Below are positions 10,668-12,401 of a stretch of DNA of 64,000 nucleotides, one piece after another. The position numbers and the translations under genes are program-made. The notes under the pieces are model-generated. The model did not search any database. It was given only the letters and a program-made list of their open reading frames with translations, and had not been told where the DNA came from. Origin of the DNA: Fontisphaera persica (GTDB lineage: Bacteria > Verrucomicrobiota > Verrucomicrobiia > Limisphaerales > Fontisphaeraceae); NCBI RefSeq assembly GCF_024832785.1, contig NZ_CP116615.1:124001-188000 (forward strand), written 5' to 3'. Numbering within the stretch: position 1 is the stretch's first letter; each line of letters starts with the position of its first letter.

Positions 10668-10690
10668 AGTTTATTCGTTGTTTTGTGTTA

Positions 10691-10755
10691 AAAGTGCAAA
10701 GGCAAGGATTTGGTAAATGCAAAAGGCAAAAGGCAAAACTTAAAATGCAAAATCC
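10691..10755. repeat. A-rich imperfect repeat, left flank of the four-helix gene
   Basis: Repeated units of the type AAATGCAAAA / GGCAAAAG, for example at 10715-10726 and 10742-10753. The reverse complement of the unit recurs on the other side of the four-helix-bundle gene (11151-11187), giving degenerate terminal inverted repeats. The low-complexity A-rich text contrasts with the GC-rich BMC genes on both sides. Confidence 0.55.
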
Positions 10756-10764
10756 AAGAGTGGT

Positions 10765-11181
10765 TCATGGTTGACGCCTGTTTTTCGCGGTGACGATGGA
10801 TTTGCCGATGATTTTGCATAGTTCTTCGCTTTCCAGCAGGAGCGTCTCCACCAATTCGGCACGCAAGAGATTGGCCTTGATGATAAGCCGCAACCATAAC
10901 CTGGACTCGCGTAGTTCTTTGAGGGCCACGCTCAATTTATGTATGAAATCTTCCCGGCTTTCGGCAGCCCGGGCTTCCTCATAGTTTGGCGCTGCGGAGG
11001 TACCGGAGCGAATAAGCTGCCCCGCCACATGCCGGCCCAACCGATTGAGCGGCAAAGCGTTGGCCAATCGGGCGCTGCGAACTGCAAAATCCAAAATGCG
11101 CTCGGACAATTCGTCATAGGGCACACGCCCTGGGCGCGAGGGTTTTTTTTCATTTTGCACTATGCATTTTGAATTTTGCAT
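10765..11181 (-). CDS. Four-helix bundle protein (23S rRNA intervening-sequence / Avd-like family)
   Basis: 138 residues with four long helices: LSERILDFAVRSARLANAL, GQLIRSGTSAAPNYEEARAA, FIHKLSVALKELRESRLWLR and LLRAELVETLLLESEELCKI. This is the pattern of the S23/IVP four-helix bundle family. Such genes occur inside 23S rRNA intervening sequences and scattered singly in genomes; their function is poorly known. The first dozen codons lie within the right A-rich repeat. It interrupts the otherwise functional order ackA to BMC-H and has no obvious link to the compartment. I read it as a small inserted cassette. Confidence 0.85.
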   Translation of the reverse strand: MQNSKCIVQNEKKPSRPGRVPYDELSERILDFAVRSARLANALPLNRLGRHVAGQLIRSGTSAAPNYEEARAAESREDFIHKLSVALKELRESRLWLRLIIKANLLRAELVETLLLESEELCKIIGKSIVTAKNRRQP

Positions 11182-11187
11182 TTGCCC
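11151..11187. repeat. A-rich imperfect repeat, right flank of the four-helix gene (inverted)
   Basis: On the plus strand this reads as TTTTGCA/TGCATTTT units, the reverse complement of the left-flank units at 10691-10755. It spans the start codon of the four-helix gene and stops just short of the ackA stop codon region. Together the flanks bracket about 0.5 kb. Confidence 0.55.
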
Positions 11188-11201: not shown

Positions 11202-12401
11202 TCAGCTTAGGCCCTCCTGCTCCTTGATTAATAATCGCCGGGTTTCGCGTGCCACGACGAGCTCTTCGTTGGTGGGAATGACCATCACCTTGACCCGGGA
11301 ATGCGGAGAGCTGATGACCGCCTCCTGGGCGCGCGTTTGCTGATTCAGGGCGGGGTCCAGCTCAATTCCCAGGTGGTCCAGGTCCCGGCACACCGCCGCC
11401 CGCAAGCCGAAGTCGTTTTCCCCAATCCCGGCGGTGAATACCAGCGCATCGGCGCCGTTCAGTTCCACCAGAAAGGCGCCAATCCAATGCCGGATGGCAT
11501 GCACGAAGTGGTCCAGCGCCAACTGGGCGCGCGCCTCGCCCTGCTGGGCCCGGGCGGTGATGTCCCGCATGTCATTGTAGCCGCCAGAGAGGGCTTTAAG
11601 CCCCGATTCCTTGCAAAGCTGGCGCTCGGCTTCTTCCAGCGTCATTCCGGTTTGGCGGAGCACATGGGGCAGGGCAAAAGCATCCAGGTCGCCCACGCGG
11701 TTATTGTGCGGCAGGCCAGATTGGGGGCTCATTCCCAGGCTGTTGCCCACGGCAATGCCGTCGCGCAGGCCGGTGATGGAGGAGCTGCCGCCCAGATGGC
11801 AGGAAATCACCCGCAGCGCCGGGGAGCGCACTGGCGTGGTGCCGCCGTCCACGTAAAGCTGCCGCACCCGGCGCGCCACATCCTCGCGTCCCAACAACTC
11901 CGCGGAGCGCTCGGCGATGTACTTGTGACTGGCCCCATGGAAACCATAGCGCCGGACGCCCAGGTCATACCAGGACTCCGGCACGGCGTAACGTTGGGCG
12001 GCCGGCGAGGCCCATTGGTAAAAGGCCGTTTCAAACAGCCCCACCAGCGGCACGCCTGGCATGGCCTGCGCAAACAAACGGATGCCGGCAATGTACGGCG
12101 GATTATGGGCCGGGGCGATGCTGTTGAAGGCTTCCATGGCCTGCAGCACGCGCTCGTCCAGCCGCACGCAACCGGTGATGCCCCGCGCCAACACCGTTTT
12201 GAAACCCACCGCCGCCAAATCAGCGGCGTGTTGAATGTGCCCGGCCTGCTGGAGCTGTTCAAGGCACGTGCGGATGGCTTGCGGATAATCCGTGACCCGC
12301 TCCAGCCCGCCCTTGTGCAGCATCTGCTCCTGCTCGCCGACGAAGTGGAACAACCGCCACTTGAGCGAGGTGGAGCCGATATTGGCAACCAGGATTTTCA
12401 T
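11202..12401 (-). CDS. ackA: Acetate kinase-type short-chain acyl kinase of the BMC operon
   Basis: 399 residues, the family length. Landmarks are the N-terminal nucleotide-fold strand ILVANIGSTSLKWRLF, YRYGFHGASHKY-like RRYGFHGASHKYIAER, ISCHLGGSSSI and VFTAGIGENDFGLRAAVC near the end. It should transfer phosphate from lactyl-phosphate (or acetyl-/propionyl-phosphate) to ADP, closing the compartment pathway with ATP. The NIGSTSLKW motif differs from the common NAGSSSLKF, perhaps reflecting a non-acetate substrate. No encapsulation peptide is evident, so it may work outside the shell. Confidence 0.93.
   Translation of the reverse strand: MKILVANIGSTSLKWRLFHFVGEQEQMLHKGGLERVTDYPQAIRTCLEQLQQAGHIQHAADLAAVGFKTVLARGITGCVRLDERVLQAMEAFNSIAPAHNPPYIAGIRLFAQAMPGVPLVGLFETAFYQWASPAAQRYAVPESWYDLGVRRYGFHGASHKYIAERSAELLGREDVARRVRQLYVDGGTTPVRSPALRVISCHLGGSSSITGLRDGIAVGNSLGMSPQSGLPHNNRVGDLDAFALPHVLRQTGMTLEEAERQLCKESGLKALSGGYNDMRDITARAQQGEARAQLALDHFVHAIRHWIGAFLVELNGADALVFTAGIGENDFGLRAAVCRDLDHLGIELDPALNQQTRAQEAVISSPHSRVKVMVIPTNEELVVARETRRLLIKEQEGLS

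Follow-up and report, generated by a model that had tools for sequence, protein, structure and literature searches.

The window, by which we mean the whole 64,000-nt stretch of Fontisphaera persica DNA that was analysed, contains a bacterial microcompartment operon in which a small gene flanked by two repeat arrays lies between ackA and a BMC-H shell gene. The features of this locus are listed below.

10690..11187, minus strand: complete cassette (IVP gene and its two heptamer arms, inverted to each other); borders approximate, set by eye, at a locus without a close empty site
10765..11181, minus strand: four-helix-bundle (IVP/S23) gene, 138 aa; TIGR02436, PF05635, AlphaFold model
10690..10760, no strand given: arm downstream of the IVP gene, an array of AAATGCA-type heptamers (as read on the plus strand); period 7, score 20
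11144..11187, no strand given: arm upstream of the IVP gene, inverted TTTTGCA-type heptamers over the first ~13 codons, start codon included; period 7, score 17; translation
11202..12401, minus strand: ackA, upstream neighbour of the cassette; PF00871, 304 bits
10383..10667, minus strand: BMC-H shell gene, downstream neighbour of the cassette; PF00936, 78 bits

The cassette and its protein

The open reading frame at the centre of the cassette is a member of the TIGR02436/PF05635 (23S rRNA IVP, S23) family, scoring 78.1 bits against TIGR02436 (curated cut-off 24) and 54.2 bits against PF05635 (curated cut-off 33.8). To our knowledge, no role has been assigned to the genes annotated as 'four helix bundle protein'. 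An AlphaFold model (AF2, monomer only; pLDDT 92.2) was a four-helix bundle whose nearest solved structures were 2rld (E 6.7e-06) and 2gsc (E 6.3e-04), followed by Avd (4dwl) and the Avd chains of a diversity-generating retroelement reverse transcriptase complex (8ub7, 8ub8, 8ubb, 8ube), with TM scores of 0.57-0.67 by query length and E-values of 0.005-0.03. The predicted fold thus resembles that of Avd from diversity-generating retroelements, and homology between PF05635 and Avd has been proposed previously (PMC10053308). The IVP protein was the only product of the cassette with a family match: no transposase, nuclease, integrase or reverse transcriptase is coded by the cassette, and a scan of ten window proteins from around the gene found no reverse transcriptase. 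The cassette is not located in a 23S rRNA gene, terminal inverted repeats are present around its S23 frame, and an Rfam scan of the window returned no match at gathering scores.

Both arms have a period of exactly 7 (AAATGCA). The left arm reads as the successive units AAATGCA, AAAGGCA, AAAGGCA, AAACTTA, AAATGCA and AAATCCA, and the right arm as TTTTTCA, TTTTGCA, CTATGCA, TTTTGAA and TTTTGCA, the latter coding for the first ~13 codons of the IVP gene (MQNSKCIVQNEKK), start codon included. Together they form a 41-nt ungapped inverted pair that is 76% complementary, with a 15-nt core at 93%. The inverted local score of 21 compares with a maximum of 14 among 1500 random pairs drawn from the window with the same geometry (0/1500 reached it), and the period-7 self-match was likewise rare in the null for the left arm (score 20, 0/1500) and the right arm (score 17, 1/1500). 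GC content was 36% in the left arm and 25% in the right, compared to 59% for the window. In the folded transcript the arms pair, with a stability no better than that of shuffled sequences (z -0.23).

A first-pass annotation made from sequence alone had described A-rich repeats in opposite orientation on both sides of an S23/Avd-like gene, the right repeat covering its first codons, and an insertion that broke neither ackA nor the shell gene. All of this held: the orientation is borne out by the inverted score against its null, both arms are AT-rich, the right arm supplies the first codons, and the domain matches of ackA (PF00871) and the shell gene (PF00936) are full-length. The exact 7-bp period had been missed, and we found no evidence for the co-option that the annotation suggested.

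Inverted heptamer arms at IVP genes

The genome to which the window belongs contains four TIGR02436 genes. Two of the other three (L001, L002) lie between inverted period-7 arms built from other heptamers (AGTTTCA and GAATGGC types), and the remaining one (L004), a diverged member, is flanked on its 3' side alone by a 9-bp array. In a genome of the same family (G002) there are seven such genes; inspection by eye of the five closer ones found clear 7-bp arms in four (L014, L016-L018) and weaker arms in L015. Of the other two, L019 is bordered by 9-bp arms, and L020 shows at most a weak array on one side. In the diverged members L004 and L019, 9-bp GTCCAT-type arrays stand in place of heptamers. 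The same-genus genome G001 has no TIGR02436 gene. The word AAAATGCAAAA from the window arms occurs exactly at six places in its own genome (reversed-pattern control 2), but dispersal of this repeat could be rejected: the five other places are not arrays, so the window heptamer itself is not dispersed, and ATTTTGCATTTTG had no match in this genome. The search for other copies proposed in the first-pass annotation therefore failed for the A-rich repeat and succeeded for the gene, with three further copies, two of which have inverted heptamer arms of their own.

The family is present in 184 of 240 sampled genomes of this phylum and in many other phyla. We surveyed a pool made up of the 30 top-scoring loci of the phylum, 11 loci of the window's own family and the 80 best-scoring of the 589 loci that were confirmed in a scan of a genome collection, these 80 representing at least 15 phyla by record titles, including ANME-1 archaea, Cyanobacteria and candidate phyla. 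These sets consist of best-scoring members and are not a random draw. After removal of one duplicate and six loci with short flanks, 114 IVP loci remained. Inverted arms (score >=15) were found at 93/114 IVP loci versus 10/105 far-flank controls, leaving 21/114 without arms at this threshold, and the best period was 7 or 14 in 174/228 near flanks versus 9/219 far flanks. A consensus unit could be read in both arms at 67 of 121 loci. At 53 of these 67 the units of a locus's own two arms were reverse-complementary with at most 1 mismatch in 7, compared to 3.3% of other-locus pairs and to 5/67 in direct orientation. The 67 units fell into 60 rotation classes, such that the heptamer varies between loci but agrees between the arms within a locus. 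The heptamer thus belongs to the lineage of the element: it moves together with the gene into new places, and the arms stay reverse-complementary as their sequence changes between lineages. C is scarce in upstream units and G in downstream units (12% each), which indicates that the arms have a fixed polarity relative to the gene.

The flanks of genes for GxxExxY proteins (TIGR04256) provided a comparison. Inverted arms were present at 28/30 of these loci, whereas only 3/60 flanks had a period of 7 or 14 and 31/60 had a period of 8-10 or 16-20 (far control 5/57), showing that the period goes with the protein family. The GxxExxY arrays (L024:4781-5158, L056-L085), of period ~8-10, frequently resemble CACAGAGGA and are similar from genome to genome.

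Both neighbours were on the strand of the IVP gene at 58 of 92 loci (longest-ORF heuristic). Comparison across loci showed that insertion is mostly between operon genes, co-directional with them and near stop and start codons, which leaves the neighbours intact. No member of the IVP family was matched in 50,697 phage records, and three 23S marker words were absent from the loci fetched up to that point.

Occupied, empty and gene-less sites

The clearest comparison of sites came from Nostocales conjugative plasmids, two of which (L171, L175) contain a cassette at a position where six records (H41-H46) match the flanks at 97.5-98% in a gapped alignment. The empty site, read in L172 and L173, is AAAAAGTAATTAACAAAT; the occupied site is AAAAAGTAAT, then AAATCAGAATTCAG ... 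CTCCTGAGTTCTTCTTT, then GTAATTAACAAAT. The insert measures 422 bp with the second GTAAT excluded, and GTAAT is found on either side. As a 422-bp cassette bounded by GTAAT is missing at sites that are ~98% identical, the cassette behaves like a mobile element whose ends are the arrays. This duplication was clear at this one site only (GTAAT, 5 bp; 5-8 bp are possible, the left copy being imperfect). The same plasmid site contains a remnant in Nostoc C052 (L174) and a gene-less array pair in Brasilonema (L177). Elements of this type occupy three different sites at 78-82% identity, arms included, and the similarity ends near the arms; the two other sites are empty in L291-L294 and in L295-L296, respectively, with ambiguous duplications. 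In L293 a different IVP cassette lies at the next junction, which is without a cassette in L286, L291, L292, L294 and L297. For elements taken from different sites dN/dS was 0.10-0.15, showing that the IVP protein is under purifying selection across sites; the nearly identical L171/L175 pair, at the same site, gave 0.86 from few changes. The near-identical Calothrix plasmid loci L166 and L167 were set aside, one larger duplicated segment being likelier than separate jumps. IVP cassettes were also seen in cas operons, between cas6 and cas4 of a type I-D system (L169) and between cas10 and cmr3 of a type III-B system (L287). At the cas6-cas4 position a relative (L290) has other filler where L169 has the cassette.

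We also compared the ackA/BMC-H junction of the window with that of its relatives. In G001 this junction contains a different cassette, a GxxExxY gene (TIGR04256, 126 bits, cut-off 35) between inverted ~10-bp repeats, and in G002 a short period-7 array without a gene. Among 28 further relatives, namely those with an ackA match, in 27 the BMC-H gene follows ackA at a distance of 7-159 nt and no gene intervenes; L321 was unresolved. An isolated period-7 array is present in some of these gaps (score 14 in L312 and L314; score 12 in L303, with a tie at lag 4). The site of L001 is also empty, in both G001 and G002. The first-pass annotation had proposed looking for an empty junction in relatives and for a target-site duplication, and had held that its idea of a mobile or spreading unit would be refuted if the gene sat at the same place in all relatives and the repeats were absent elsewhere in the genome. 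That refuting outcome was not met, and comparison supports mobility for the IVP family; the candidate duplication is the GTAAT of the one plasmid site, and at the window locus a duplication cannot be read because the relatives are too diverged.

A genus of the same class as the window genome (g4; 40 genomes) has IVP genes in 31 genomes and offered one intergenic site that could be followed through 30 loci. Four of these contain IVP cassettes, of two kinds that differ in their heptamers; eleven are short and empty (67-71 nt with a hairpin) and one more measures 93 nt; two contain gene-less inverted pairs (L211 of CACAGATT type, L214 of ATTGACA type); one has a heptamer pair with another gene (L218); one, of 187 nt, has no arrays; seven have a ~1.2-kb stretch with another gene; and three are incomplete. 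The ~1.2-kb stretch occurs in L223, L225, L229, L231, L232, L234 and L235. At a second g4 site the cassette is oriented opposite to its flanks in two genomes (L202, L203, around 1250-1970), and the ends there are GATATCGTC stem-loop repeats and not heptamers. One heptamer class, matched as an ATTKACR triple, occurs in 24/40 g4 genomes with up to 242 matches (G244, which has two IVP genes; reversed-pattern control 0), and G007 has 151 matches and no IVP gene. In 17 stretches containing 26 gene-less arrays, an inverted partner lay within 400 nt for seven (control 1) and the other 19 were unpaired. More than 100 such matches per genome, mostly in unpaired arrays, were observed in G244, G007, G107 and G264 (L267-L283). 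In some genomes arrays thus far outnumber IVP genes, occur without them and are mostly unpaired, and can therefore spread or persist without the gene.

Some cassettes lie within other genes. At 11 of 110 loci with enough flank (L027, L028, L031, L088, L037, L039, L109, L151, L162, L002, L090), a second frame runs open across the IVP gene and 250 nt on either side of it, and in 11/11 this is the +2 frame of the same strand. Ten of the eleven hosts resemble DNA methyltransferases by profile, comprising four BREX-1 PglX proteins, five N6_N4_Mtase or related proteins and the weak match of L002 (E 4.8e-06); the eleventh is a hybrid histidine kinase. In L031, host residues 3-467 and 619-815 align to residues 522-1000 and 1014-1215 of PglX (8c45), so that the cassette reads as ~150 residues replacing 13 of PglX. 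By eye, three PglX genes (L027, L031, L088) share an insertion place, as do four methylases (L037, L039, L109, L151). A +2 frame that is stop-free in IVP genes generally was ruled out, because non-nested genes average 5.3 stops in that frame versus a mean of 0 in the nested group, which alone is stop-free. Multiplying the chances of open frames (10^-13) is no independent test, the loci having been chosen for being open. An open minus-strand frame at the GxxExxY locus L057 was regarded as spurious. By inference, cassettes within DNA methylase genes (BREX PglX, N6/N4 methylases) could render these defence genes phase-variable, since the array period is not divisible by three.

Interpretation, rival explanations and known systems

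We consider it likely that the cassette is a small mobile element consisting of one gene for an Avd-like four-helix bundle and two inverted heptamer arrays as its ends. That IVP cassettes are mobile with the arrays as ends is well supported by comparison; movement itself is inferred and none was observed. The mechanism can only be inferred from fold and anatomy. The period-7 design would let the arms pair in any register, and a transcript or single strand would fold into a long hairpin with the IVP gene in its loop. The IVP protein, built like the Avd subunits of the reverse transcriptase complex, would bind this hairpin and pass it on, and enzymes of the host (a reverse transcriptase, or those of replication and repair) would copy it to a new site.

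A bolder reading would make these cassettes a transposase-free mobile class of bacteria and archaea, in which an Avd-like protein mobilises the hairpin RNA or single strand of its own element, lineage-specific self-matching heptamer arrays serve as register-independent ends, and the element enters operons and, in protein-compatible form with the host frame open in +2, coding genes. This class would include the rRNA intervening sequences (IVS) as a branch, and some of the orphan heptamer repeats described in bacteria would be its gene-less offspring. As one joint claim we lean slightly against it. If IVP genes are mobile cassettes, their presence in unrelated operons, cas loci included, would be explained; rRNA intervening sequences, heptameric repeats and the Avd fold would be connected; and the question of how IVS elements spread would receive a testable answer. 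Heptamer-ended IVP cassettes would then represent a widespread, overlooked type of mobile element.

It remains possible that the arrays are themselves the elements, spreading by slippage and recombination like the heptamer repeats known from Xanthomonas, Nostoc and Beggiatoaceae, with IVP genes as captured cargo or as array-binding proteins that profit from them. The abundance of mostly unpaired, IVP-less arrays in some g4 genomes favours this, as do gene-less array pairs at sites that elsewhere hold IVP cassettes. Against it, inverted arms of period 7 go with IVP genes across phyla while GxxExxY arms have another period, the IVP gene is under purifying selection across sites, and gene and arms move as one 422-bp piece. 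We consider it unlikely that IVP genes are ordinary trans-acting genes, such as accessories of CRISPR-Cas operons, with the arms as transcription or processing signals. The cas-operon loci (L169, L287) and the listing of 23S_rRNA_IVP as a cas-linked function (PMC3936711) speak for such a role, and the strand polarity of C-poor upstream and G-poor downstream units would suit RNA signals; however, the neighbours vary by locus, the cassette is absent at orthologous junctions and the end sequences vary from locus to locus. That A-rich repeats surround the IVP gene of this single operon by chance is all but excluded: the low complexity of the window arms is the only point in favour, whereas 0/1500 random pairs reach the window score and the same design recurs at other IVP loci.

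The mobile-cassette reading touches several known systems. The open-licence literature we searched, which leaves out most subscription papers and preprints, held no general account of inverted heptamer arrays at IVP genes, and a prior description of heptamer-ended IVP cassettes cannot be excluded. The cas-linked listing dates from a 2013 survey, and IVP near CRISPR is listed also in PMC10910872. Heptameric repeats of Xanthomonas and Nostoc form intergenic arrays; two Xanthomonas genomes have 70 and 75 convergent inverted pairs, and no general association of the Xanthomonas repeats with mobile elements was stated (PMC4692102); the TAACTGA repeats of Beggiatoaceae are likewise intergenic heptamer arrays (PMC4679880). 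The bearing sections of these two papers make no link to IVP. REP/BIME sequences with their RAYT proteins, and MITEs, are short dispersed repeats, often in inverted pairs and linked to a gene or not; IVP cassettes differ from them in their lineage-specific period-7 arrays and in a protein that is not a tyrosine transposase. GxxExxY (TIGR04256) cassettes resemble IVP cassettes in having inverted arms and, in G001, in occupying the same ackA/BMC-H junction, but their arms have a period of ~8-10, are CACAGAG-like and similar across genomes, and the protein is unrelated. With Avd of diversity-generating retroelements the IVP protein has its fold in common, although the IVP cassette lacks a reverse transcriptase.

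The closest parallel is the intervening sequence of 23S rRNA. In Coxiella burnetii, an IVS that has been termed a selfish element has direct GACAGAT heptamers before the S23p start codon and a 28-bp stem (PMC4990558). A relation between IVP cassettes and rRNA IVS is likely, albeit without direct comparison, and S23-type IVS would in this scheme be the special case of insertion into rRNA. Like the IVP cassette, the 23S rRNA IVS consists of one S23/IVP gene in ~430 nt between stem-forming inverted terminal repeats; unlike it, the IVS lies in rRNA and is excised by RNase III, whereas the cassettes described here lie in protein operons or protein genes.
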